From an uncultured Oscillospiraceae bacterium (GTDB taxonomy: Bacteria > Bacillota > Clostridia > Oscillospirales > Oscillospiraceae): a stretch of DNA of 39,485 nt. A program made the translations under genes and the position numbers. This document shows, in pieces, positions 621-26,609 of this stretch. Each line of letters starts with the position of its first letter. Positions within the stretch are counted from its first letter, which is position 1. The notes under the pieces were generated by a model. That model was given only the letters and a program-made list of their open reading frames with translations. It did no database searches and was not told where the DNA came from. Location: assembly GCA_944385035.1 (NCBI GenBank), contig CALWVV010000019.1, positions 1-39,485 on the forward strand, in the 5' to 3' direction.

Positions 621-1562
621 TTACTTGCAGAAGTCCTTTGCGACCTCCACAATGTGCTCCGCGCACAGGCCGAACTGCTTGAGCAGGGCGGCGGCGGGGC
701 CGGAGTGGCCAAACTCGTCGTTCACGCCGATGCGGCGCACGGGAACAGGACACTTCTCACTCACAAGACCGCATACGGCCTCACCCAGACCACCCAGAAT
801 GGAGTGCTCCTCGCAGGTAATGATCTTCCCGCACTCCTGGGCTGCCTTCAGCACCAGCTCCTCGTCCAGAGGCTTCACCGTGGCCATGTTGATGACCCGT
901 GCGGAGATTCCGGCCTCCTTCAGAACTTTTCCGGCCTCCATCGCCTCGGCTACCATCAAGCCGTTGGCGATAATGGCCACGTCGGTGCCCTCCTGGAGGA
1001 CCTCGCCCTTGCCGATCTCAAAGGTATAGTTGGCCTCGTCGTGGAACACAGGAACGGCGGAGCGGCCAAAGCGCATATAGACCGGGCCCACATGCTCATA
1101 GGCGGCCTTTACCATGGCCTTTGCCTCCACGTCGTCGGCGGGGGACATGACCACCATGCCGGGGATGGAGCGCATCAGGGCGTAGTCCTCGCAGCACTGG
1201 TGGGAGGCTCCGTCCTCGCCCACGGAGATGCCGCCGTGGGTGGCGCCGATCTTCACATTCAGGTGGGGGTAGCCGATGGAGTTGCGCACCTGCTCAAAGG
1301 CGCGCCCGGCAGCGAACATGGCAAAGCTGGAGGCAAAGGGCACCAATCCCATGGTGGAGGCTCCGGCGGCCACTGCCATCATGTTGCCCTCGGCAATGCC
1401 GCAGTTGAAGTGGCGGTCGGGATAGGCCTTCTTAAAGGTACCCGTCTTGGTGGCTCCGGCCAGGTCCGCGTCAAAGACAATAACGTCCTCGTGCTCCGCG
1501 GCCAGCTCCTTCAGAGCGTTGCCATAGCTTTCGCGGGTCGCGATCTTCTTCACATCTGCCAT
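621..1562 (-). CDS. tkt: Transketolase, C-terminal subunit
   Basis: 313 residues. It carries the pyrimidine-binding (Pyr) and C-terminal domains of transketolase, a thiamine-diphosphate enzyme that moves two-carbon units between sugar phosphates in the non-oxidative pentose phosphate pathway. Visible landmarks are FNCGIAEGNMMAVAAG, which contains the Glu that activates the cofactor (near residue 58), and GATHGGISVGEDGASHQ. The C-terminal domain begins near residue 190 (VAIIANG). Split transketolase is normal in many Clostridia and Archaea. The start is 1 bp after the N-terminal gene's stop, and its GGAGG site lies inside that gene, so the halves are translationally linked and should form the active enzyme together. 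Confidence 0.95.
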   Translation of the reverse strand: MADVKKIATRESYGNALKELAAEHEDVIVFDADLAGATKTGTFKKAYPDRHFNCGIAEGNMMAVAAGASTMGLVPFASSFAMFAAGRAFEQVRNSIGYPHLNVKIGATHGGISVGEDGASHQCCEDYALMRSIPGMVVMSPADDVEAKAMVKAAYEHVGPVYMRFGRSAVPVFHDEANYTFEIGKGEVLQEGTDVAIIANGLMVAEAMEAGKVLKEAGISARVINMATVKPLDEELVLKAAQECGKIITCEEHSILGGLGEAVCGLVSEKCPVPVRRIGVNDEFGHSGPAAALLKQFGLCAEHIVEVAKDFCK

Positions 1563-1563
1563 C

Positions 1564-2409
1564 TTACATCGCCTCCAGTTCCGCCAGCTGAGCCTTAAGC
1601 TCCTTCATGGCAATTGCATATTCCTCATCGTTGGGGGCCTTGCCGTGCCAGCCCACCTGGTTCTCCATGTAGCTGACGCCCTTGCCCTTGGTGGTCTTCA
1701 TCACAATGGCAAAGGGCACACCCTTTGTCTGGCGGGCCTTGGCAAAGGCGGCCTCTATCTGGTCAAAGTCGTGTCCGTCGATCTCCGCCACCTCAAAGCC
1801 AAAGGCACGCAGCTTCTCGGGGATGGGATAGGGACTCATGACCTCGTCGATCCTACCGTCGATCTGCAGGCCGTTGTTGTCGATGATCACGCACAGGTTG
1901 TCCAGCTTATAGTGGTGGGCGAACATCATGGCCTCCCACACCTGGCCCTCTTCGATCTCACCGTCGCCCAGCAGGGCATACACCCGGCAGTCCATCCCCT
2001 TGTGCTTGGCAGCCAGAGCCATACCGGCTGCAGCAGAGATGCCCTGGCCCAGAGAACCGGTGGACATATCCACACCGGGGGTCTCGTTCATGTTGGGGTG
2101 GCCCTGGAGGTAGCTGCCGATATGGCGCAGGGTGGGCAGATCCTCCACAGGGAAGAAGCCCCGGTTGGCCAGAGCGGCATACAGCCCAGGGGCAGTGTGC
2201 CCCTTGGAGAGGACAAAACGGTCCCGCTCCTCCCACTTGGGGTTCTTGGGGTCCACCTTCATCTCTTTAAAATAGAGGTATGTAAACAGGTCCGCGGCGG
2301 ACAGGCTTCCGCCGGGATGGCCCGCCTTGGCGCCGTAGGTGCCTTCAATGACTCCCATGCGCACCTTACAGGCGGTCACCATGAGCTGCTTTTTCTCGCT
2401 GGCTGTCAT
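1564..2409 (-). CDS. tkt: Transketolase, N-terminal subunit
   Basis: 281 residues forming the pyrophosphate-binding (PP) domain of split transketolase. GHPGGSLSAADL, VLSKGHTAPGLYA, GSLGQGISAAAGMA and GDGEIEEGQVWEA are all present. The last is the GDG-x(n)-N magnesium-diphosphate motif, completed by DNNGLQIDG. The ATG at 2409 is chosen over the longer reading because GAAAGGGAG sits 7 bases upstream of it. A good promoter (2475-2503) lies ahead. Between promoter and gene is a 19-bp palindrome almost identical to one in front of the iclR operon, suggesting shared control by that regulator. Confidence 0.95.
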   Translation of the reverse strand: MTASEKKQLMVTACKVRMGVIEGTYGAKAGHPGGSLSAADLFTYLYFKEMKVDPKNPKWEERDRFVLSKGHTAPGLYAALANRGFFPVEDLPTLRHIGSYLQGHPNMNETPGVDMSTGSLGQGISAAAGMALAAKHKGMDCRVYALLGDGEIEEGQVWEAMMFAHHYKLDNLCVIIDNNGLQIDGRIDEVMSPYPIPEKLRAFGFEVAEIDGHDFDQIEAAFAKARQTKGVPFAIVMKTTKGKGVSYMENQVGWHGKAPNDEEYAIAMKELKAQLAELEAM

Positions 2410-2436
2410 AGCGTTCTCCCTTTCATCAAAAGATAT

Positions 2437-2455
2437 CGTTCTCCTATAGAAAACG
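2437..2455. promoter_or_regulatory. Putative IclR-type operator before transketolase
   Basis: The 7-5-7 palindrome CGTTCTC-N5-GAAAACG has one mismatch and lies about 14-32 bases after the predicted transcription start. It aligns without gaps to the palindrome at 26092-26110, including the flanking TAT, and sits at the same distance from its promoter. This is sequence inference; no binding is shown. Confidence 0.6.
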
Positions 2456-2474: not shown

Positions 2475-2503
2475 ATTATAAAACAGGCCCGTTAAAATTA
2501 CAA
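2475..2503 (-). promoter_or_regulatory. Sigma-A-type promoter of the transketolase pair
   Basis: TTGTAA and TATAAT are separated by 17 bp on the minus strand (-35 at 2498-2503, -10 at 2475-2480). The promoter starts directly after the lipoprotein terminator. Confidence 0.8.
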
Positions 2504-4477: not shown

Positions 4478-5812
4478 TTATTCGGCCAGGATGCCTACCG
4501 CGCGCAGGCTGGAGAGCAGCTGGTTGAAGGCCGTGACCACGTCGCTGGTGCTGGTGGCATTGGGCACCGCCGCCGCCCGTGCCAGCAGTCCGCTCGGGCC
4601 GGTGGGGCCAGTAGGACCGGTGGGACCGGTGGCACCCTCCGCGCCCGCAGGTCCCTGGGCACCGGCAGGGCCTTCCGGCCCAGTGGGGCCAGTGGGACCG
4701 GTCTCGCCAGTATCACCCTTCGCGCCGGCAGGACCCGCAGGACCCGTATCGCCGGTATCACCTTTAGCCCCCTGGGGTCCAGCAGGGCCGGTGGGACCGG
4801 TAGCGCCTTCCGCTCCAGCGGTACCCTGGGGACCCGTGGGACCGGTAGGACCAGTAGGCCCGGTGGGACCAGTGGCGCCCTCCGCGCCCGCAGGTCCCTG
4901 GGCACCGGCAGGGCCTTCCGGCCCGGTGGGGCCAGTGGGGCCATCCGCTCCAGCCTGACCCTGAGGCCCGGTGGGACCAGTAGGACCGGTGGCGCCAGTA
5001 CCCGCAGGGCCAGTGGGTCCAGTGGGACCAGTGACTCCGGCAGGGCCGGTAGGTCCGGTGGGACCGGTCACACCGGCAGGGCCGGAGGGGCCAGTGGCAC
5101 CTTGGATTCCCTGGGGCCCGGTGGGGCCAGTGGGACCCTGGACAGAAACCAACTCATAATCTGCAGAACTGCCCGGTGTGCCGGTGGGGTTTCCGATCCG
5201 GGCCCGGTACAGGCTTCCGTTATAGGTGACAAAATCGCCCAGAGCATAGGGAGTGCCGGGAACAAAGGTAGTCACCGTCTGTAACCCCTCTCCCATGGGC
5301 CCGGTGGGACCAGTGGGGCCCGTGGGGCCCTGAAGTCCCTGGGGACCAGTGGGTCCGGTGGGACCGGGGATGCCGTTGGGGCCGGGAATCCCCTGAGGCC
5401 CGGTGGGTCCGGTGGCGCCGTTGGGGCCGGGATAGCCCTGGGGGCCAGTGGGTCCGGTGGGACCGGCAGGGCCGGTGGGTCCGGTGGGACCGCTCACCGG
5501 ACCGGGACAGGGAGGTACGGGACCGGGACCAGGACAGGGAGGCACCGGGTTGGGGCCTGGGCAGGGAGGCACCGGCCAAGGATTGGGGCAGGGGTCCGGA
5601 CGGGGGCAGGGATCCGGACAGGGGCAGGGATTGTGCCCATGGCAGGGAGGTACCGGAGGCATGGGCGGAGTGGGACAGCAGCCGGAATTGCAGCCGCAGC
5701 CGGAATTGCAGCCGCAGCCGGAATTGCAGCCGCAGCCGCTGTTTCCGCTCAGATAGGCCACGACCCCGTCTCTGCGGCTCTGCTCCCACTCAGAAGCATA
5801 GCATCGTTTCAT
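4478..5812 (-). CDS. Collagen-like (Gly-Pro-Thr) surface/exosporium protein
   Basis: 444 residues, start at 5812 with AAGGAG 7 bases upstream. Order of parts: short head (1-22); three tandem CNSGCG-type cysteine repeats (about 25-46); Pro/Cys-rich stretch (47-106); Gly-X-Y collagen block (about 107-174); a 50-residue globular insert with [16 protein letters not shown] (176-225) resembling small carbohydrate-binding folds; a longer collagen block (226-408); and a 35-residue tail ending [16 protein letters not shown], a helical tip like those that trimerise BclA-like and phage fibre proteins. There is no Sec signal. The layout fits an exosporium or spore-surface filament, with cysteines for cross-linking and Thr residues as sugar acceptors for the adjacent glycosyltransferase. 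Confidence 0.85.
4590..5500. repeat. Collagen-coding tandem repeat tract
   Basis: Short-period repeats of 9 and 18 bp encode [12 protein letters not shown] and related triplets, interrupted once at about 5135-5285 by the non-repetitive globular insert. The block [19 protein letters not shown] occurs twice (around 4630-4690 and 4870-4930), showing internal duplication. The repeat number is likely to vary between strains. Confidence 0.8.
5679..5732. repeat. Three perfect 18-bp tandem repeats
   Basis: The unit CAGCCGGAATTGCAGCCG is repeated exactly three times, with a fourth partial copy to 5738. On the coding (minus) strand it encodes the Cys-Asn-Ser-Gly-Cys-Gly units near the N-terminus of the collagen-like protein. 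Confidence 0.85.
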
Positions 5813-5912
5813 AAAACGCTCCTTCTTCAAAGTTGATGGTTGTGGCCATGCCCATCCTCTGGGTACGCCACACTCCATACTATGTTCCCCGCCCACATGG
5901 GTGCGTCCAGCC

Positions 5913-5941
5913 TTTACACAGCCAAAGATTTCTGTCATAAT
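5913..5941 (+). promoter_or_regulatory. Putative promoter of glpK
   Basis: TTTACA (5913-5918) and CATAAT (5936-5941) are 17 bp apart, 27 bp before the GTG start of glycerol kinase. The same 155-bp interval must also hold the promoter of the divergent collagen-like gene, which was not identified. Confidence 0.55.
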
Positions 5942-5967
5942 AGGGGACAAGAAAGGGGGAGCGCGCC

Positions 5968-17953: not shown

Positions 17954-17991
17954 AAAAAAGCGCCCCGACGCAGATTTCTCCGCGCCGGGGC
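17954..17991 (-). terminator. Intrinsic terminator of the catabolic operon
   Basis: GCCCCGGCGC pairs with GCGTCGGGGC (17962-17971, 17982-17991; one G·U), and the stem is followed on the minus strand by GCTTTTTT. It closes the iclR-to-rbsD unit. Confidence 0.85.
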
Positions 17992-18018
17992 AACACACAC
18001 ACAAATGGAAACTTTCGC

Positions 18019-18426
18019 TCAGGCCACACCCACGGTGATGAGCAGGTTGGCAAACACCCGCTTCTCGCCGGTGGACACGGCCACGCGCACCTGGGGCAGG
18101 CCGCAGGCATCGTAAAACTCATACCGGCCCAGCTTATCCAGCTCCATGCCGCCCAGCATGGTCTGGAACTCCCCGAAAATCTCGGGGGTGGTGCCGTCGG
18201 CGGGGTCCATGACCTCAGCCTTTTCAATGTTGATGACGCTCTGGATGGCCTCCAGCACATCGGTGACGGTGGGAAGGCCGGGCTTCAGACCCAGGTAGAT
18301 CTTCTCGGCGTTGCCGGTCTTGGAGTCCAGAGGATAGTTTCCGTCGGCAATGAGCACCTTGTCTCCGTGGCCGCACAGGGCCAGGGCGGCCATCAGATCG
18401 GGATGGATGAGCGTTCCCTTCAGCAT
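18019..18426 (-). CDS. RbsD/FucU-type sugar mutarotase
   Basis: 135 residues, start at 18426 with AAGGAGGGG. RbsD/FucU proteins speed the interconversion of sugar ring forms so that a kinase or isomerase receives the right anomer. MLKGTLIHPDLMAALALCGHGDKVLIADGNYP contains the conserved His-Gly-Asp and the N-terminal substrate segment, and YEFYDACGLPQVRVAVSTGEKR the C-terminal one. Ring-type decamers are typical of the family. As the last gene of the iclR operon, 13 bp after the SIS gene, it probably acts on the sugar phosphorylated by the PfkB kinase. Which sugar is unknown. Confidence 0.88.
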   Translation of the reverse strand: MLKGTLIHPDLMAALALCGHGDKVLIADGNYPLDSKTGNAEKIYLGLKPGLPTVTDVLEAIQSVINIEKAEVMDPADGTTPEIFGEFQTMLGGMELDKLGRYEFYDACGLPQVRVAVSTGEKRVFANLLITVGVA

Positions 18427-18439
18427 AAACAGCCCCTCC

Positions 18440-19054
18440 TTACTTCTCGTTGTCCCGCAGCTGGCCCAGCTTTCCGCCGGGATGGCAGCGCACATACTTG
18501 ATGGGGTCCCAGTCCTGCTCCACCTGGAGGGCCACGGACAAAGCCTGGAGGGTGAGGATCTCCGCCAGGATGGAGTTGCGAGGGGCCCGGTTCAGGGGGC
18601 CGCCCTCCTCCTTCACGCCGGCAAAGAGGAAGGCGTCACTCTCTTTGGCCAGCCAGCTGTCCGGGTTGCCGGACACGCCGATGACCTTGCAGCCGTTGTT
18701 TTTCACAGCCAGGACAGTGGCCTTCAGCTCCCCGGTCTCACCGGAATTGGAGATGGCAATGACCACATCTCCGGCCACCAGCTGGCCGCAGGAACCGTGA
18801 ACGGCCTCAGTGCCGTGGAGGAAATAGCAAGGATTACCAGTGGAGGAAAACAGAGAGGCCATGTAGGCGGACACATGGCCGGGCTTGCCGATACCGGTGA
18901 TGTGCAGCCGGTTGCCCTTGGCCTGGGCCTCCAGGATGATCTGGGCGGCAGCCTCGTAATCATCGGGGCTCAGGGACTTCAAAAAGGTATTCATCTGGGT
19001 GTCCACGCTCTGGAAGAAGTTGGACACCGCCTGCTTGCTTTCAGGTTTCAGCAT
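18440..19054 (-). CDS. SIS-domain sugar phosphate isomerase
   Basis: 204 residues, start at 19054 with AAAGGGAG upstream. A single SIS fold of the KpsF/GutQ/HxlB kind: LHITGIGKPGHVSAYMASLF (phosphosugar loop), FLHGTEAVHGSCGQLVAGDVVIAISNSGETGEL, and ILTLQALSVAL near the end. The CBS pair of true KdsD/KpsF is absent. It probably interconverts an aldose phosphate and a ketose phosphate, such as an arabinose-5-phosphate or hexulose-6-phosphate type reaction. Placed between the kinase and mutarotase genes, it fits the step before transketolase. Confidence 0.88.
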   Translation of the reverse strand: MLKPESKQAVSNFFQSVDTQMNTFLKSLSPDDYEAAAQIILEAQAKGNRLHITGIGKPGHVSAYMASLFSSTGNPCYFLHGTEAVHGSCGQLVAGDVVIAISNSGETGELKATVLAVKNNGCKVIGVSGNPDSWLAKESDAFLFAGVKEEGGPLNRAPRNSILAEILTLQALSVALQVEQDWDPIKYVRCHPGGKLGQLRDNEK

Positions 19055-19110
19055 AGCGTCATACTCCCTTTCATAGTTTGCAGATGGTTTCAAAAGGTCC
19101 GGACGGTTCG

Positions 19111-19137
19111 CTTCCCCGGAGAACATCTCCGGGGAAG
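19111..19137 (-). other. Intercistronic perfect hairpin
   Basis: CTTCCCCGGAGA and its exact complement (12 bp) enclose a 3-nt loop, between the kinase stop and the SIS gene. No T-run follows, so it is more likely a stability or processing element than a terminator. Confidence 0.65.
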
Positions 19138-19144
19138 TATGGGC

Positions 19145-20140
19145 TTATTTCAGCGCATCCAGCAGGGACAGGTCAAAGCCCTGATAGCCCCGCTCCTCCA
19201 TCAGCGCCTTTACCTCGTCCACCGTGGGCAGGCTGGGCATAGCTCCCATCCGGGAGACGGTGATGGCGGCGGTGTGGCTGGCAAAGGCCAGGGCCTCCCC
19301 CTGGGGCAGGCCGGCGGTGAGTCCGGTGCAGAAGGCGGCCACGAAGGAGTCACCGGCGGCAGTGGGGTCGGCCACATGCTCCATCTTCACACACTGGGTG
19401 TGGTGGATGCCGTTCTTGCCGGCCACGATGGAGCCGTTCTCCCCCATGGTGATGATCAGGTTCTCCACCCCACGGGCCTGGAAGGCCTTGGAGACAATAT
19501 CCACATCCTCCATGTTGATGCCGTTGGACACGTCAATGGAGTGGCCCGCCAGCAGGGCGGCCTCGTGCTCGTTGGGGGAGAGATAGGTGGTGCAGGCCAG
19601 GAGCTTGTCGGACATGGGAGCGGCGGGAGCAGGATTGACCATCACGATGACCCCCGCGTCGTGGGCCCACTGGGCCACGGTCTCAATGACCTCCATGGGC
19701 AGCTCAAACTGCATCATGACCAGGTCATAGTTGCCGATCTCGTCCTTCAGCCAGGCCACATCCTCCACCGTCAGGGTGAAGTTGGCGCCGGGGCAGACGG
19801 TAATGCGGTTCTGGGCCCCGTGCTCGGTGACCTCCAGGGTGATATGGCCCACACCGGAGGACTCGTTGGGGTCTACCGACACATGGGATACGTCCACGCC
19901 GGATGCGGCGGCGGTATCCGTCATGATCTTGCCAAAGGCATCGTCACCCACCTGACCTGCCATGGTCACATGGGCACCCAGGCGGGCACACTGGACAGCC
20001 TGGTTGGCGCCCTTGCCGCCGGGAGCGGTTTGGAACTTTAACCCCACCACCGTCTCGCCGGAGTTGGGGGCTCGCCTGGTGGAGGCGATCAGGTCCATCA
20101 TAAAACTGCCCACCACCAGAATGTTGGGTTTTTTCAACAT
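19145..20140 (-). CDS. PfkB-family (ribokinase-like) sugar kinase
   Basis: 331 residues, start at 20140 with AAGGAG 8 bases upstream. Ribokinase landmarks are NILVVGSFMMDLIA, GGKGANQAVQCARLGAHVTMAGQVGDDAFG, and the ATP and catalytic segment DPTAAGDSFVAAFCTGL, in which the usual GAGD anion hole reads AAGD with the base Asp kept. It phosphorylates a free sugar or sugar-like alcohol. It lies 16 bp after tctA and is followed by the isomerase and mutarotase. It is close to RbsK in form, but ribose is not assured because the uptake system is for carboxylates. Confidence 0.9.
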   Translation of the reverse strand: MLKKPNILVVGSFMMDLIASTRRAPNSGETVVGLKFQTAPGGKGANQAVQCARLGAHVTMAGQVGDDAFGKIMTDTAAASGVDVSHVSVDPNESSGVGHITLEVTEHGAQNRITVCPGANFTLTVEDVAWLKDEIGNYDLVMMQFELPMEVIETVAQWAHDAGVIVMVNPAPAAPMSDKLLACTTYLSPNEHEAALLAGHSIDVSNGINMEDVDIVSKAFQARGVENLIITMGENGSIVAGKNGIHHTQCVKMEHVADPTAAGDSFVAAFCTGLTAGLPQGEALAFASHTAAITVSRMGAMPSLPTVDEVKALMEERGYQGFDLSLLDALK

Positions 20141-20155
20141 GGGAGTCACTCCTTC

Positions 20156-21661
20156 TTACTGCTTGACCGGCTTTTTAAAGACCTTCTTAAGGGCAGGACC
20201 CAGGATGGGGGCAAACAGAGAGACTAAGGCAATGAGCAGGAAAATAGCGCAGATGGGATGCTCCAGGAAGATCATCATGCTGCCGTCGGACATCATCAGT
20301 GCACCGCGGAAGTTCTGCTCAGCCAAAGAGCCCAGGATGATACCGATGACGATGGCGCTGCTGGAAAACTCCATCTTGTTGAGGAAATAGCCCAGGAAGC
20401 CAAAGGCCACCATGACAAACACATCGGTAATGGAGTTATTGTAGGCAAAGGCGCCCACAAAGGTCATCACAAAGATGATGGGCATAAGGTACTTTTTGGG
20501 GACATTGATGACCTTGACAAACAGACGGATCACGGAGAAGCCCAGCAGGCCCATCACCAGGTTGGCCGTCATCAGGCCCAGGAAAATAGTATACACCTGG
20601 GGAGCCTGGTTCTGGAACAGCAGGGGGCCGGGCTGCATCCCCTGCACCATCAGGGCACCCAGCATAATGGCGGTGGCACCGTCGCCAGGGATACCCAGGG
20701 TCAGCATGGGGATCATGGCGCCGCCGGACACGGCGTTGTTGCCAGCCTCGGGGGCACAGATGCCCTCGGGCGCGCCGTCGCCGAACTTCTCCTTTTCCTT
20801 GGACCAGCGCTTAGCCTCGTTATAGGAGATGAACGAGGAAATGTCGCCGCCGGTGCCGGGGACGGCGCCGATGACAGTGCCGATGACAGAGGAGCGGAGA
20901 ATCGTAATGGCACACTTCTTTAAGTCAGCAAAGGTGGGGAAGACTCGCTTGAGCTTCACATCATGCTTGACGTAGGTTTCATTGTAAGAATCCTCAATGG
21001 AGGTAAGGACCTGGGAGAAGGCGAACAGACCGATCAGGACAGGGACAAAGGACAGTCCGCCCAGCAGATAGGTGGTACCGAAGGTCATGCGCATCTGGCC
21101 GCTCATAGCATCAATGCCGATGGTAGCAATGATCAGGCCCACCAGGCCGCCCATCAGGCCCTTAAGCACAGAGCCGGAGGAGACGGAGGTGATGATGGAA
21201 ATTCCAAACACGGCCAGGGCAAAGTACTCCGGCTTGGAGAACTGCAGAGCCACAGAGGCCAGCATGGGGGAAAACAGCACAAGGCAGATGGCGGAAAACA
21301 CACCTCCAAAGGTGGAGGAGAAGGTGGACAGGCCCAGAGCCCGTCCCGGTTGTCCGTATTTGACCGCCATGGGGTAACCGTCAAGGGTGGTAGCGGCGGA
21401 TGCGGGGGTTCCCGGTGTTTTCAGCAGGATAGCAGTGATAGAACCGCCGTAAATGGCACCGCAGTAAATACCCAGCAGCATCAGAATGCCGCCGATGCCC
21501 TGGAAGGAGAAGGTTAGTGGGAACAGCAGGGCAATGCCCATATTCACGGAAAGGCCGGGCAGTGCTCCGATCACAATGCCCACAGCCACGCCGAAAATCA
21601 GGCCGCCCAGATTCAGGGGAGATAAAAATACATTACCAAAAGCAGCTAAAATCGCATCCAT
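20156..21661 (-). CDS. tctA: Tripartite tricarboxylate transporter, large membrane subunit TctA
   Basis: 501 residues with about 11-12 hydrophobic segments. TctA landmarks are GVAVGIVIGALPGLSVNMGIALLFPLTF (the GxxxGxxPGL region), YGGSITAILLKTPGTPASAATTLDGYPMA and GTGGDISSFISYNEAKRWS. It forms the ion-driven membrane channel of a TTT importer with TctB and the binding protein TctC, all present. The start at 21661 has GAGGAGG upstream, 11 bp after tctB. TTT systems take up carboxylates such as citrate, and also terephthalate and sugar acids. Confidence 0.95.
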   Translation of the reverse strand: MDAILAAFGNVFLSPLNLGGLIFGVAVGIVIGALPGLSVNMGIALLFPLTFSFQGIGGILMLLGIYCGAIYGGSITAILLKTPGTPASAATTLDGYPMAVKYGQPGRALGLSTFSSTFGGVFSAICLVLFSPMLASVALQFSKPEYFALAVFGISIITSVSSGSVLKGLMGGLVGLIIATIGIDAMSGQMRMTFGTTYLLGGLSFVPVLIGLFAFSQVLTSIEDSYNETYVKHDVKLKRVFPTFADLKKCAITILRSSVIGTVIGAVPGTGGDISSFISYNEAKRWSKEKEKFGDGAPEGICAPEAGNNAVSGGAMIPMLTLGIPGDGATAIMLGALMVQGMQPGPLLFQNQAPQVYTIFLGLMTANLVMGLLGFSVIRLFVKVINVPKKYLMPIIFVMTFVGAFAYNNSITDVFVMVAFGFLGYFLNKMEFSSSAIVIGIILGSLAEQNFRGALMMSDGSMMIFLEHPICAIFLLIALVSLFAPILGPALKKVFKKPVKQ

Positions 21662-21672
21662 ATGATCCCTCC

Positions 21673-22140
21673 TCAGCGCAGCCAGATGGGCTCAGGCAGC
21701 GGGGTGTGCAGCAGCTCCACAAAGGCCAAATACAGCACCAGCACGAATACCACATCCAGAATGATCACAGCCTTGCCCCTGCCGCCCAGCATATAGGAGC
21801 AGATGGGAATAAAGATCAGCGCCGCAATCAGCAGTCCAAAAATGTACATGACCACACAGAATCCCACCGTCAGCGCCATGAACTTATAAACCAGCATGTT
21901 CTGGGGCAGGGTCATGGTAAAGGTCTTTGCCTCGTCTTTTTCTTTGTTTTTCGTGGTCATCACCGCGAGCAAAATGGCGAGTAAAATCAGCAGACCGCCC
22001 AACAAGGTGGGCCAGAAGCCCGCGCCGGGATCTCCCACGCCAAATTCAATGTCGAACTTGGAGTTGATGGCAATCACTCCAATTCCCAAGGCCGCAACGA
22101 TGATCGCAATGACATAGTTCCACTTTCTCATGTTTGTCAT
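21673..22140 (-). CDS. tctB: Tripartite tricarboxylate transporter, small membrane subunit TctB
   Basis: 155 residues with four hydrophobic segments: YVIAIIVAALGIGVIAINS, FWPTLLGGLLILLAILLAVM, FMALTVGFCVVMYIFGLLIAALIF, and VIILDVVFVLVLYLAFVELL. GVGDPGAGFWPTLLG is the typical TctB loop. It partners TctA in the membrane. The start at 22140 has only a weak AAAGAG site, and ATG 22131 is possible. A stable hairpin lies between it and tctC. Confidence 0.9.
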   Translation of the reverse strand: MTNMRKWNYVIAIIVAALGIGVIAINSKFDIEFGVGDPGAGFWPTLLGGLLILLAILLAVMTTKNKEKDEAKTFTMTLPQNMLVYKFMALTVGFCVVMYIFGLLIAALIFIPICSYMLGGRGKAVIILDVVFVLVLYLAFVELLHTPLPEPIWLR

Positions 22141-22171
22141 AGCATATCAACTCTTTCTGCTTAAATTAAGT

Positions 22172-22201
22172 GTGGGGGGCGACCCCTTCGGCCGCCCCCA
22201 C
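22172..22201 (-). other. Intercistronic hairpin after tctC
   Basis: GTGGGGGCG pairs with CGCCCC(C)CAC with one bulged base; no T-run follows on the minus strand. Such a hairpin after a binding-protein gene could raise the stability of the tctC message relative to the membrane subunits. Confidence 0.6.
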
Positions 22202-22241
22202 AAATAGTCAAGGATTTGCGCGGGAGGTGACGATCGGGAGA

Positions 22242-23282
22242 TTACACGTCCAGCTCAGCCAGAACCTCGCCGAACATCGCGTGGTCTTCCTCCATCATCT
22301 GATAGCAATCGTCGCCAATAATGCACACGGGGTCAATGCCCTGGTTCATCAGGTACTCCTGATACTCAGGATCGTTGCAGGTCTTCTCAGCGGCATCGCG
22401 CAGGATCTGCAGGATCTCAGCGGGGGTATCCTTGGGGGCCACAACGCAGGCCCAGGAGCGGATGGTCATGTCGTAGCCCAGCTCCTTGAAGGTGGGCACG
22501 TCGGGGAACATAACGGAACGCTCGTCGGCCATGATGGCCAGGATCTTCAGAGTGCCGGCCTGAACCTGGCTGACAAAGCTGGAGGGATCGGCCAGAGTGC
22601 CGTCGATGTGACCGCCGGTCAGAGCAGCGGCGATGTCAGCGGTGCCGTTGGGATAGGGAATGTGCTTGACCTCAATGCCAAACTCTTTCTCCATCTGGAC
22701 GGTAGCCACGTGCCAGATAGCGCCCATGCCGGAGTTGCCCATCTGGACAGTGCCGGGATTCTCCTTGCAGTAGTCCACGAACTCCTGCAGGCTGTTGTAG
22801 GGAGCGTCGGCGGGAACGATCAGAGCGGCGGGAGCGGCGATCTGAGCGCAGATGGGGGCGTAGTCCTCATAGGTGACGGTGCACTTGCCCTGGTGAGGGA
22901 ACATAGCCAGCTCCACGGTCACAGCGCCCAGGGTGTAACCATCGGCCTTGGCATTGGCGGTCTCCACCATGCCGGTAACGCCGCCGCCGTCGGGCTTGTT
23001 GGTGGGCACAAAGTTGGCCCCGTCAATGTAGTTCTTCATGTACTGGAGCAGGCCGCGGGTGGACACATCAGTGCCGCCGCCGGGATTCTTGGGGATGATG
23101 ACAGTAATGTCCTTGGTGGGGTAGTCCACAGTGGTGGCCTGGCTGCCGGCGGCGGAAGCGCTGCCGGCAGAGCTGGCATCCGCGCTGCCAGCGGAACTGG
23201 TGGTGTTGCCGCCACAGCTGGCCAGCAGGCTGACAGACAGAGCGGCGCTCAGACACAGAGCGATTGCTTTCTTGAACTTCAT
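22242..23282 (-). CDS. tctC: Tripartite tricarboxylate transporter substrate-binding lipoprotein TctC
   Basis: 346 residues, start at 23282 with AAGGAGG. A lipoprotein signal ends in LLASC, followed by a Ser/Ala-rich linker, as expected in a Gram-positive cell. The Bug/TctC fold shows YPTKDITVIIPKNPGGGTDVSTRGLLQYM, VPTNKPDGGGVTG, ALTGGHIDGTLADPSSFVSQVQAGTLKILAIMADER and VPTFKELGYDMTIRSWACVVAPKDTP. The PGGGTD and following loops bind a carboxylate group, so the imported compound is probably an acid, perhaps a sugar acid given the operon. Confidence 0.95.
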   Translation of the reverse strand: MKFKKAIALCLSAALSVSLLASCGGNTTSSAGSADASSAGSASAAGSQATTVDYPTKDITVIIPKNPGGGTDVSTRGLLQYMKNYIDGANFVPTNKPDGGGVTGMVETANAKADGYTLGAVTVELAMFPHQGKCTVTYEDYAPICAQIAAPAALIVPADAPYNSLQEFVDYCKENPGTVQMGNSGMGAIWHVATVQMEKEFGIEVKHIPYPNGTADIAAALTGGHIDGTLADPSSFVSQVQAGTLKILAIMADERSVMFPDVPTFKELGYDMTIRSWACVVAPKDTPAEILQILRDAAEKTCNDPEYQEYLMNQGIDPVCIIGDDCYQMMEEDHAMFGEVLAELDV

Positions 23283-23313
23283 GTTCTTCGTCCTCCTTCT
23301 TTTTCAAACAAGC

Positions 23314-24225
23314 TTAGAGATATTCCTTACTCATACGCTCCGTAATGCGGTGCAGCATCTCAACCTCACTGCGGAACGTAGTCGTCAAATCCTTATCGCT
23401 CTTCGAGCGAGTCTCCGTGGTGATGGGCAGTCCCTCCAGAGAGAGGTAGTACTTGGCGTTGACGGGGTAGAGCTGACGCTCAATGAGCGAACAGATGGTC
23501 AGCTCATCAGAGAGCTTGTCGGCCTTTGGATCATGAATGTGATCGCACAGCCAGGCATACAGCTCACACTGCATATTTGCCATGACACCGCTGTAGCCAG
23601 TGGCTCCGTAGCGCAGGGACTCCAACAAAGTGGAGGTGTTGGCATTGTAGAGCCTCAGGTTGCTGCCCTTGCAGATGTCCACTTTTTCCTTGATCTGCTC
23701 CAGGTCGCAGCAGGTGTCCTTCAGGAAGAAGAACCGGCCGCTCTCAGCACACCAGCGGGTCACACGGGGGCTGAGCACCCGCTTGTAGGGGAAGGGGCAC
23801 TCATAGAAGCCCAGAGGCACATCCTCAGGCATCTGGGCCAGGATGGTCTGGAGATTCTCCAGCCACACATCATCGCTCTCGTCCTCTTTGGCCAAACGAT
23901 TGGTAATCAGGATCACCGCGTCCACACCGGTCTCAGCCATGGCCTTGAGCTCGTCGATCTGGTCCTCGATAGCGTCAGAGATGTGGCCGGAAGCAATCAC
24001 GGGCACCCGGCCGGCGGCATGCTCCTTTACAAACTTGGCCACGCCCACTCGCTCTTCCTTGCTGAGAAAGAACATCTCACTGGACTGGCACACAGCGAAC
24101 AGGCCGGAAACCTTGTGGGCAATATACCACTCGATAAGCTCTGCCAGGGCGGGATAGTCCACTTTGCCGTCCCGGAAAGGGGTCAGCATTGTGGGCCATT
24201 CTCCGCCGGGAAAATGGTTTGTCAT
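23314..24225 (-). CDS. NAL/DHDPS-family aldolase (pyruvate-lyase type)
   Basis: 303 residues, start at 24225 with AAGGAGAGG. A class I Schiff-base TIM-barrel enzyme: Lys169 (FFFLKDTCC) and Tyr141 (GFYECP) are 28 residues apart, as in DapA and NanA. The usual GTTGE loop is replaced by QSSEMFFLS, which argues against dihydrodipicolinate synthase and NanA proper. Such enzymes cleave or form 2-keto-3-deoxy acids with release of pyruvate. It lies between the sialidase-like gene and the carboxylate importer and is the likely carbon-carbon cleaving step of this pathway. Confidence 0.88.
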   Translation of the reverse strand: MTNHFPGGEWPTMLTPFRDGKVDYPALAELIEWYIAHKVSGLFAVCQSSEMFFLSKEERVGVAKFVKEHAAGRVPVIASGHISDAIEDQIDELKAMAETGVDAVILITNRLAKEDESDDVWLENLQTILAQMPEDVPLGFYECPFPYKRVLSPRVTRWCAESGRFFFLKDTCCDLEQIKEKVDICKGSNLRLYNANTSTLLESLRYGATGYSGVMANMQCELYAWLCDHIHDPKADKLSDELTICSLIERQLYPVNAKYYLSLEGLPITTETRSKSDKDLTTTFRSEVEMLHRITERMSKEYL

Positions 24226-24262
24226 ATATATCCTCTCCTTACATTATTTATCGTTTGATCGG

Positions 24263-25291
24263 TCAGGCTTGCTCCCCGACCAGACGGATATGCCAATAGG
24301 CAATGTTTTCCCGCTTCCAGGTATAGGTGATCCGCACCTCGTCCCCCCGGCACAAAATGGCGGGATAGGCAAACTCTCCAATGCCAGTATCCAGGTCCAT
24401 GACCTTCTCCCATGTGAAGCCGTTATCTCGGGACAGAAGCAGGCTGATGGGGGTACGAGCTCCCCAGTTGTCGGCAACAGGGTTGCAGACCAAAAGCAAT
24501 TCCCCGCTGTCCAGCCGGTCCAGGTCAATGCCGCTGTTGTTGTTGGGCAGCTCCAGCGGGTAGGGGGCACACCAACTCTCACCGTTGTCACTGCTGTCAC
24601 TGCGGTAGACATGGCCCTCGGTGGAGCGCAGGAGCATATGGACCTTACCAGGCTCCGACTCCCACAAAGTGGGCTGGATCACGCCCCGGCCATAAAAGGA
24701 CTGCTCGGCTACCGGTACATCGCTGTTCTCCACCGTCCGGGTTCCATCGTTCACCAGTCCCTGGATCCGGATGGGGTTGGAACGCGTCCAGGTCTCCCCC
24801 TCATCATCGGACCGGTCTGCGTAAGCCGTCCAGGGACCCAGCTCGGTGGAACAGGGGGCCAGCAGCCGCCCGGAGGCAAGGCGGATCACCTTGCTGCGCA
24901 CAGGGCCGCGGCCGCCATTTTCATCTCCAGGTACCAGCTCTTGGGGCACGCTCCAGGTTTGTCCGCCGTCCGGAGACTCACATACCATCGTCCGCCAATG
25001 GGCGATAATCTGTCCTACCTTATAATAAAGCCGAATGCTGCCGTCCTTTTTCTGCTGCAGCACCGGATTCCAGTGGGCTTCGTTCACATGTGCAATGGAA
25101 AACGGAGGCTGCCACACACCATCCACCCTGCGTGCCACCCAGATGGCCACATCCCGCTCTCCTTCGTGGGAGCCGCCAAACCAGGCGCACAGGACACTGC
25201 CGTCCTCCAGATCCAGCACCGTGCTGGCGTGGCAGATGGCGGTGGGAAGCTTGGCGCAGATCATTTGCCGGCTGAGTACTTCATAGTTCAT
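24263..25291 (-). CDS. Cytoplasmic sialidase-like BNR_2 protein
   Basis: 342 residues with no signal peptide, so unlike classic bacterial sialidases it stays inside the cell. Four Asp boxes mark a beta-propeller: SPDGGQTW, SDDEGETW, SDNGESW and SRDNGFTW. The N-terminus has AICHASTVLDLEDGSVLCAWFGG-type sequence with WFGGSHEGERDVAIW, typical of the BNR_2/COG4409 group, and no clear FRIP motif. The true reaction of this group is not settled; it may be a hydrolase or lyase on an acidic sugar. Its ATG overlaps the iclR stop (ATGA), and it precedes the aldolase gene by 37 bp. Confidence 0.82.
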   Translation of the reverse strand: MNYEVLSRQMICAKLPTAICHASTVLDLEDGSVLCAWFGGSHEGERDVAIWVARRVDGVWQPPFSIAHVNEAHWNPVLQQKKDGSIRLYYKVGQIIAHWRTMVCESPDGGQTWSVPQELVPGDENGGRGPVRSKVIRLASGRLLAPCSTELGPWTAYADRSDDEGETWTRSNPIRIQGLVNDGTRTVENSDVPVAEQSFYGRGVIQPTLWESEPGKVHMLLRSTEGHVYRSDSSDNGESWCAPYPLELPNNNSGIDLDRLDSGELLLVCNPVADNWGARTPISLLLSRDNGFTWEKVMDLDTGIGEFAYPAILCRGDEVRITYTWKRENIAYWHIRLVGEQA

Positions 25292-26058
25292 CGGTAGATC
25301 CTCTCCCTCATATGAGCGGTGGCACTGCGCAAAATGTCAGCGCATTCCATCAGCTTTTCATCCGTCATGGTAGAAGCGGGGCCCGAGGTACTCATCCCCG
25401 CCACCAATTGTCCCATAGCGTTATATACCGGCACACCTACACAGCGCACATTGTAATCATGTTCCCCGTTGTCGATGGCAAATCCCATCCGCCGGGTCCG
25501 GCGAAGCTCTTCAAAAATGGCCTCCCGGTCGGTAATGGTGTTGGGCTGATATTGAATCAGCTGTTCTGGGAGATGCTCTGCCCACTCTGTCTCCGGCATG
25601 TGGGCCAGCATAGCCTTGCCCAGCCCCGTACAATACATGGGGCTGGTCTCTCCCAGCATGTCCCGGTAGGGCAGCACGCCCATGCGGTTGATGGGATGGG
25701 CCACATAGAGGTAAAGTACATTGGTACCGTAGGGCAGGCCAAAATAGACAATCTCATCGGTCTTAGAAGCGGTGTCTACCATAATATCATACACCGCATT
25801 GGGGTAACCCAGGTTCTGATTGATGATAAAGGCGTATTCCAGCATTTTCAGCCCCAAGGTGTACCGCCCGTCCGGAGTGCGGTCCAGATAGCCCAGGTCA
25901 TGGAAGGTGGAGACGATGTTATGTACGTTGGACTTTGTCACACCCATCCGCTCCGCCAGCTCACTGACCCCCAAAACAGGCTGTTCATGGGTGAAGCAGG
26001 ACAAAATATTCAGTGCCTTTGCCAGGGATTTTACTTTGGGCTCCTGTTTCTCCCCCAT
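25288..26058 (-). CDS. IclR-family transcriptional regulator
   Basis: 256 residues, start at 26058 with AAGGAGGAGG. The winged helix lies at about 12-75 (LAKALNILSCF, LGVSELAERMGVTKSNVHNIVSTFHDLGYL, YTLGLKMLEYA). The effector domain follows, with VLYLYVAHP, CTGLGKAMLAHMPE, RRMGFAIDNGEHDYNVRCVGVPVYN and ISTSGPAS-like MSTSGPASTM. It is the first gene of the catabolic operon and overlaps the sialidase-like gene, so it is expected to control its own operon. Palindromes at 26092-26110, 26225-26243 and 2437-2455 are the candidate binding sites. The effector is probably a pathway intermediate. Confidence 0.93.
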   Translation of the reverse strand: MGEKQEPKVKSLAKALNILSCFTHEQPVLGVSELAERMGVTKSNVHNIVSTFHDLGYLDRTPDGRYTLGLKMLEYAFIINQNLGYPNAVYDIMVDTASKTDEIVYFGLPYGTNVLYLYVAHPINRMGVLPYRDMLGETSPMYCTGLGKAMLAHMPETEWAEHLPEQLIQYQPNTITDREAIFEELRRTRRMGFAIDNGEHDYNVRCVGVPVYNAMGQLVAGMSTSGPASTMTDEKLMECADILRSATAHMRERIYR

Positions 26059-26091
26059 ACAGCCTCCTCCTTCCAGTTGGCCCATCGGTAT

Positions 26092-26110
26092 CGTTCTCTA
26101 TTGAAGAACG
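26092..26110. promoter_or_regulatory. Putative IclR operator at the catabolic operon
   Basis: CGTTCTC-N5-AAGAACG, a 7-5-7 palindrome with one mismatch, lies about 15-33 bases after the predicted start of transcription and before the iclR ribosome site. It is closely similar to 2437-2455 and 26225-26243. Confidence 0.65.
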
Positions 26111-26130
26111 CCTTTTCTTATTACAAATGT

Positions 26131-26159
26131 ATTGTAGCAAAGCGCATGATTTTTTGCAA
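26131..26159 (-). promoter_or_regulatory. Sigma-A-type promoter of the catabolic operon
   Basis: TTGCAA (26154-26159) and TACAAT (26131-26136) are 17 bp apart on the minus strand. Confidence 0.8.
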
Positions 26160-26609
26160 GAGGCTAAATTTTTTTTGGAAGATTCGTGTGCATACATGAA
26201 CTTTTTATGAAGAAAAAAGACCGCCGTTCTCTTATTAAGAACAGCGTTAAAAAGTTTTTGACATTGCCTCCGCGCTCGCCCAAGTTCTGCCTCCCGCAAC
26301 GGTCGATTGCGAAAGGTAAACGCACACCTTCTTTCGGCAAAATCCCTCTTTTCAAGGAAAATGATCATCATTTTTTTATTTTTTCTCGCGCCTCTTTTTC
26401 CCTTCTCTTTTTCTCTTTTGCCGCCTTTGCAAGCCATGGACAGAAGACAGGCTGATACGCTCCACACGGTGTCCTAAGCACCGCTTCGATTTCATAATTT
26501 AGTCTAATATGTTGTAATTTTCCTCCATTTCTGTGAATCTTGCCGGATTTTGCTTCGTTAAGTTCCCGCTTTTCTTTCAGTTTCGTTCGTTAAGAAGCTG
26601 TTAATTTCG
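26160..26609. other. Intergenic region between divergent iclR and activase units
   Basis: About 450 bp without a credible gene; open readings here lack ribosome sites and are low-complexity. It is AT- and pyrimidine-rich compared with the rest. It holds the third operator, the short palindrome AAAATGA-TCA-TCATTTT followed by T-rich sequence (26358-26374), a small CGGTG/CACCG dyad near 26467, and two copies of TTCGTTAAG (about 26553 and 26587) before the activase promoter. Confidence 0.6.
26225..26243. promoter_or_regulatory. Upstream copy of the IclR-type operator
   Basis: CGTTCTC-N5-AAGAACA shares the complete GAGAACG half (minus strand) with the other two sites. Its centre is 133 bp from the promoter-proximal site, a distance suited to looping by a multimeric regulator. 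No good promoter is seen directly next to it. Confidence 0.5.

Follow-up and report, generated by a model that had tools for sequence, protein, structure and literature searches.

Does one regulator act at two promoters of this locus, or do the near-identical palindromes found there differ in origin? The question arises in a 39,485-nt stretch of DNA from an uncultured Oscillospiraceae bacterium (hereafter the window, in its whole length). One palindrome, CGTTCTC-CTATA-GAAAACG, occupies positions 2437-2455 in front of tktN, which encodes the N-terminal part of a transketolase (1564..2409, minus strand; PF00456, below NCBI cut-offs); the open reading frame at 621..1562 (minus) is presumably tktC, the C-terminal part. 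The other, CGTTCTC-TATTG-AAGAACG, occupies 26092-26110 in front of a gene for an IclR-family regulator. The initial annotation had matched the two without gaps, together with a TAT directly ahead of each on the plus strand, and this was confirmed; its list had missed a third copy, CGTTCTCTTATTAAGAACA, at 26225-26243, 133 bp from the second. Sigma-A-like promoters, recognised by consensus match only, were located at 2475..2503 (minus; TTGTAA-17-TATAAT) for tktNC and at 26131..26159 (minus; TTGCAA-17-TACAAT) for the iclR operon. The promoter-like pairs thus have the 17-bp spacing that was described, but the distance from the -10 box to the palindrome on the minus strand, described as equal, is 19 bases at tktN and 20 at iclR, near-equal rather than identical. 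The half-sites have the same orientation at both places.

Such a resemblance had been called unlikely by chance. With a matrix built from the iclR sites of other genomes (2 of its 12 training sites chosen by position, not strength), scores for the tktN site were 17.2 (mRNA strand) and 22.9 (opposite strand); a score of at least 17.2 is expected by chance about 3 times per genome (0.05 per window), and one near 22.5 about 0.08 times per genome. The palindrome pair was, moreover, chosen as striking out of many possible pairs. When up to 3 mismatches were allowed, 12 matches to the pattern were found in the window (5.8 expected; at least 12 in 4 of 100 shuffles), and 9 copies of the half-site GAGAACG lie in it, one of them at the tktN ribosome-binding site. 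Unlinked copies, raised beforehand as an argument against co-control, amounted to a single exact one: the exact pattern is present at three places in the 2.52-Mb assembly (89.5% complete), and the only one outside the window lies within a glycogen-phosphorylase-like coding sequence. The genome-wide scan with up to 2 mismatches gave no excess (46 matches versus 62 for the reversed-pattern control), while the 17-bp core was matched somewhere in 36 of 63 genomes.

The regulator gene (25288..26058; PF09339, HTH_IclR, 53.1 bits; PF01614, IclR_C, 113.7 bits) heads an operon read from the minus strand. It includes genes for a sialidase-like BNR_2 protein (24263..25291; PF13088, weak sialidase matches), a DHDPS/NAL-family aldolase (23314..24225; PF00701), in which we take residues found by pattern to be candidate Schiff-base Lys and Tyr motifs, the carboxylate-binding subunit TctC (22242..23282; PF03401), TctB (21673..22140; PF07331), TctA (20156..21661; PF01970), a ribokinase-like PfkB kinase (19145..20149; TIGR02152, 288.0 bits against a cut-off of 299.65), a KpsF/GutQ-like SIS-domain sugar-phosphate isomerase (18440..19126; 122.9 bits against a cut-off of 203.7) and an RbsD/FucU mutarotase-like protein (18019..18453; PF05025). 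NCBIfam cut-offs were reached by none of the operon proteins searched. The proposed route would start with aldolase cleavage to pyruvate and D-arabinose and continue through the mutarotase, a 5-kinase and an arabinose-5-phosphate isomerase to ribulose 5-phosphate. NALs make KDO from D-arabinose and pyruvate at an activity of about 1-1.5% relative to ManNAc, according to the available excerpt of PMC4016182, and KdsD/GutQ-type isomerases, as read from their family names, are linked to arabinose 5-phosphate; catabolism of a KDO-like ulosonate via D-arabinose 5-phosphate is therefore a reasonable inference for this operon. The NAL-family aldolase, the sialidase-like protein, the carboxylate transporter and the DUF386 gene beside iclR in several relatives recall sialic-acid/ulosonate catabolism with NAL-type aldolases as outlined in that excerpt, whereas the kinase, the KpsF/GutQ-like isomerase and RbsD/FucU point to D-arabinose 5-phosphate rather than ManNAc (PMC4016182). 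In the open-licence literature, KDO aldolase catabolism with D-arabinose was found only in work on NAL enzymes, and nothing was found that joined IclR with a TTT transporter and an A5P isomerase, or with Kdo and TRAP.

IclR orthologues, 62-79% identical, are present in 7 of the 64 genomes of the genus (the window's own included), and also in L058 (Lawsonibacter sp. MAG), L059 (Pseudoflavonifractor sp. Marseille-P3106) and L060 (Ruminococcaceae MAG RUG12832). Kinase, isomerase and RbsD parts 74-93% identical to those of the window occur in G017, G020, L059 and L060, there behind an aldolase of 40-42% identity. G035 has the transporter, aldolase and sialidase-like parts, and its kinase, isomerase and RbsD were not found; in L058 the search recovered iclR and, of the rest, only an aldolase (43%). 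The stretches examined of G002 and G005 showed iclR without any other operon gene; for G002 this absence is uncertain, since its contig ends about 1.5 kb past iclR and the genome is 58% complete. A DUF386 (YhcH-like) gene adjoins iclR in several relatives (L119, 3379-3825; L059, 9284-9733; L120, 13621-14067), and in the window genome such a gene lies on contig C14, close to another IclR-family gene.

The palindromes near iclR are very likely operators of this regulator, as judged from their distribution among the orthologues. O1 (26092..26110, minus; CGTTCTTCAATAGAGAACG on the mRNA strand) lies just downstream of the iclR promoter and O2 (26225..26243, minus; TGTTCTTAATAAGAGAACG) 133 bp upstream of O1, both predicted by pattern scan and orthologue comparison. 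The 430 bases upstream of iclR were searched for paired sites with a leave-one-genome-out matrix, two weak sites being excluded from training; the upstream sequence of L058 equals that of G040 and was counted once. In 6 of the 7 operon-bearing genomes the two best sites were 125-134 bp apart: 133 bp in the window (G000) and in G017, 132 bp in G035 and G040, 134 bp in L059 and 125 bp in L060. Shuffled sequences matched the weaker partner in 0% of cases for the window, G040 and L060, 1% for G017, 3.5% for G035 and 6.5% for L059, so that the second site is modest in G017 (p 0.01), G035 (0.035) and L059 (0.065). The proximal site was found in all 7, weakly in G035; G020 keeps it with only a weak, third-ranked partner at 129 bp. 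No paired sites were detected upstream of the IclR orthologues of G002 and G005; a lone match lies at -260 in G005. In the proximal site, 8 columns show no variation among the 7 genomes, and its covariation is no better than that of shuffles (129 to 256 of 500, depending on the measure), the pattern expected of a DNA site. With these conserved, mostly paired sites, there is high confidence that IclR would regulate its own operon through the predicted operators; this half of the control proposed in the initial annotation is well supported, while co-control of tktNC is judged less likely than not.

The likeness to autoregulated catabolic operons of the IclR family extends to the HTH and C-terminal domains of the window's regulator, as far as these are described in the excerpt of PMC8222616. 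In that motif comparison sites lie mostly at -20 to -80, a range that includes the centre of the window's proximal site, about 43 bp before the start codon. Compared by eye, the 17-bp palindromic site with its outer GTTC/GAAC resembles group 1 sites, but its inner bases deviate from the group 1 consensus GKTYCRYW3-4RYGRAMC (PMC8222616). The same excerpt puts the tandem sites of 94 orthologous groups, though not of all, at intervals of 18-22 bp, whereas pairs of the O1/O2 type are 125-134 bp apart; it also reports tetramer binding for the family (PMC8222616).

Further operators were sought with GTTCTN5AGAGAACG and 1 mismatch, which gave 28 matches in nine IclR-bearing genomes and 22 in nine IclR-less ones (reversed controls, 22 and 21, respectively). 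Ten of the 28 are iclR operators. Other matches inspected were rejected: that of the window genome lies in the glycogen-phosphorylase-like coding sequence, those of G031 and G001 at the ribosome-binding site of a peptidase-like gene, and that of G017 within an open reading frame. The idea that O2 serves a divergently read DUF386 gene was likewise discarded: DUF386 is divergent beside iclR in G017, G035, G040 and L059, but in L060 it points the same way as iclR, and in the window genome it is found away from this locus. A possible target of the IclR orthologue of G002 is a pair of weaker motif matches in that genome, separated by 158 bp (L121, 4857-5033); the gene nearby is apparently a TRAP-type transporter, on our assumption.

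At tktN the comparison gave another picture. Some tktN match exists in all 64 genomes of the genus, several of them distant; the nearest relatives are those of G001 (95%) and of G031 and G043 (93%), and a search for IclR orthologues at E<=1e-60 found none in these three genomes. The segment with the iclR operon and both operators (17971..26488) is missing at the locus in the sister genomes G001 and G043, where the flanks are 52 bp (window 17970 and 26489) and 87 bp (17934 and 26490) apart, respectively. As the locus is otherwise collinear, the operon was either acquired by the window lineage or lost from the sisters. In G031 the flanks are on two contigs beside other genes, and no iclR was seen. 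If the tktN repeat were an IclR operator, it was expected to be missing or decayed where IclR is missing; this expectation failed, because G001 and G031 hold similar repeats (GGTTTTCTAGAAGAGAACC and TGTTTTTCATGGAAGAACA, respectively). An inverted repeat is in fact present in the tktN leader of all three IclR-less relatives, at or a few bases off the window position, that of G043 being a different, stronger stem (-17.3 kcal/mol) with another sequence, shifted by a few bases.

The window's repeat (2437..2455, minus; mRNA CGUUUUCUAUAGGAGAACG) is predicted, from the fold of a 25-nt piece and from covariation, to form an 8-bp RNA stem with a 3-nt loop. The piece folds at -7.5 kcal/mol (z -2.8). In an alignment of three related sequences (window, G001 and G031; G043 was left out), all 8 pairs are kept, and in 3, the outer pair included, both partners have changed; the sequence varies while the pairing is kept. 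On these three related sequences, then, compensatory changes were found. The observed covariation was reached by shuffles in 21, 34, 21, 59 and 21 of 500, by measure, and pairing falls to 54-75% with slid partners. Whole-leader folds were unremarkable in the window (z -0.6) and G031 (z -0.5); in G031 another pairing wins in the whole-leader fold and the hairpin has p 0.23. Hairpins reach p<=0.1 in 11 of 18 tktN leaders of at least 50 nt (mean z -1.7) and in 1 of 20 shorter ones. This sample of 38 comes from 58 tktN loci with 52 parsed starts, less 10 without a promoter call and 4 too short; its members are not independent, several being near-identical (G039 and G042), and the promoter call of G025 is apparently misplaced. 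At gathering scores, Rfam gave no leader family at tktN or iclR, and only 5S rRNA and tRNA; these lie at the contig end (39244-39484, minus). The open-licence literature yielded nothing on transketolase leader stem-loops. As a short leader stem-loop, the tktN element resembles those that stabilise bacterial mRNAs, insofar as the excerpt of PMC7509114 describes them, and differs in that its function is a prediction from sequence.

Two further elements of tktN leaders were observed. A reading frame of 6 codons (ATGAAAGGGAGAACGCTATGA; window 2406-2426, minus), whose stop runs into the start codon of tktN, recurs unchanged in G001, G031 and G043; its conservation may have arisen by chance through the ribosome-binding site. 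In G061, which is without an IclR orthologue, CGTTTTGGCCGGAAGAACG (L155) lies 70 bases before tktN and is another look-alike inverted repeat.

The tktN palindrome is thus more likely an RNA hairpin of the leader, which is similar to the operator by accident or else was recruited as one. Modestly favoured overall is a split origin, with O1 and O2 as a putative IclR operator pair and the tktN repeat as a probable RNA hairpin. This reading is built on the observed sequences, positions, conservation, pairing and operon absence in two sisters, from which DNA binding, repression, bridging and hairpin function are deduced. Its strongest competitor is the co-control originally proposed, in which IclR would repress tktNC at 2437-2455, as a true operator or a co-opted older hairpin, and pentose-phosphate flux would be joined to the catabolic operon. 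The 22.9 strand score of the window exceeds those of the IclR-less G031 (19.5; 18.3 on the mRNA strand) and G001 (17.2; 13.5), the repeat shares the near-equal promoter-proximal position and orientation of O1, and transketolase would be a sensible partner for a pathway thought to deliver ribulose 5-phosphate, all of which counts against a mere hairpin. On the mRNA strand the order is reversed for G031, whose 18.3 exceeds the window's 17.2. Yet none of the five other IclR-bearing genomes with a close tktN (G002, G005, G040, G020 and G017; 84-86% identity, the G017 match covering residues 1-245) has the repeat at that place, nor does a second G020 copy (80%). Conservation in related strains, on which the earlier proposal had been made to depend, is therefore lacking at the site itself in these five, while moderate matches occur further upstream in three of the five.

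These upstream matches deserve weighing. Within 200 nt before tktN, matches of 13.9-18.6 were found in 3 of the 5 IclR-bearing genomes (G005 at -122, score 18.6; G002 at -120, 13.9; G040 at -154) versus 3 of 46 IclR-less leaders, two of the latter being G001 and G031; Fisher p is 0.009 at the threshold behind these counts and 0.07 at 15, both thresholds having been picked afterwards. The iclR-pair matrix scored the G005 and G002 matches at 19.4 and 14.3. As operators the half-sites of G005 and G002 were set aside, since by eye they align with a stretch also present in the IclR-less G060, G045 and G041 behind terminator-like stems, though they still weigh against the hairpin reading; the G040 match, again by eye, falls within a terminator-like stem. 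Changes of RNA-stem type at the tktN repeat in two IclR-less relatives, the comparable repeats of the IclR-less sisters and an outer pair that covaries, which an operator would not need, all speak against co-control. Because of the one-strand match quality, the position, the functional fit and the upstream matches, weighed with their caveats, IclR control of tktNC is retained as a minority possibility, unlikely on balance.

Much less probable is the binding of another DNA-binding protein to the tktN repeat, in the sisters as well, the likeness to the IclR operator being incidental: the GTTTT/GAAC core is common to the window, G001 and G031, but symmetrical changes of the outer pair and the different stem of G043 are unlike a fixed operator, and none of the 46 IclR-less leaders other than those of G001, G031 and G041 scores at least 15. 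That O1 and O2 are themselves RNA elements is hardly credible, for although the 25-nt RNA of O1 folds at -7.1 kcal/mol (z -3.1) and the proximal sites of the 7 genomes are 91% paired against 43-66% for slid versions, as would be true of any palindrome, O2 precedes the predicted iclR promoter and would hence fall outside that transcript, and the sites conserve their sequence with covariation at shuffle level.

Under the split origin favoured here, IclR at O1 would block transcription of its own operon just past the start. O2, some 130 bp farther upstream, would probably strengthen the repression, perhaps by way of a tetramer that holds both sites together. With a helical repeat of 10.5 bp, most O1-O2 distances do not correspond to an integral number of turns, so bridging is just a proposal. 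The inducer may be a sugar acid of the pathway. The tktN repeat would work as an RNA stem-loop close to the leader's 5' end; in the simplest case it would stabilise the transcript or shape ribosome access, and it would be maintained by compensatory change in the IclR-less sisters. That the KDO/ulosonate route, the two-operator IclR control and a tktN hairpin recruited as a further operator feeding the pathway all hold jointly is doubtful; equally doubtful, as part of that joint reading, is the suggestion that the proposed ulosonate operon is a hitherto uncharacterised gut-bacterial route. The window also encodes a long collagen-like Gly-Pro-Thr repeat protein (4478-5950, minus).

Taken together, the operator pair would be of an already known kind, its twin at tktN is probably a look-alike hairpin, and a predicted pathway adjoins them. 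Near-identical palindromes at near-identical promoter positions may thus differ in origin, and sisters with an empty site can tell them apart. The long-distance paired IclR operators and the predicted ulosonate operon would offer, in gut bacteria akin to Lawsonibacter and Pseudoflavonifractor, a regulon that can be tested.
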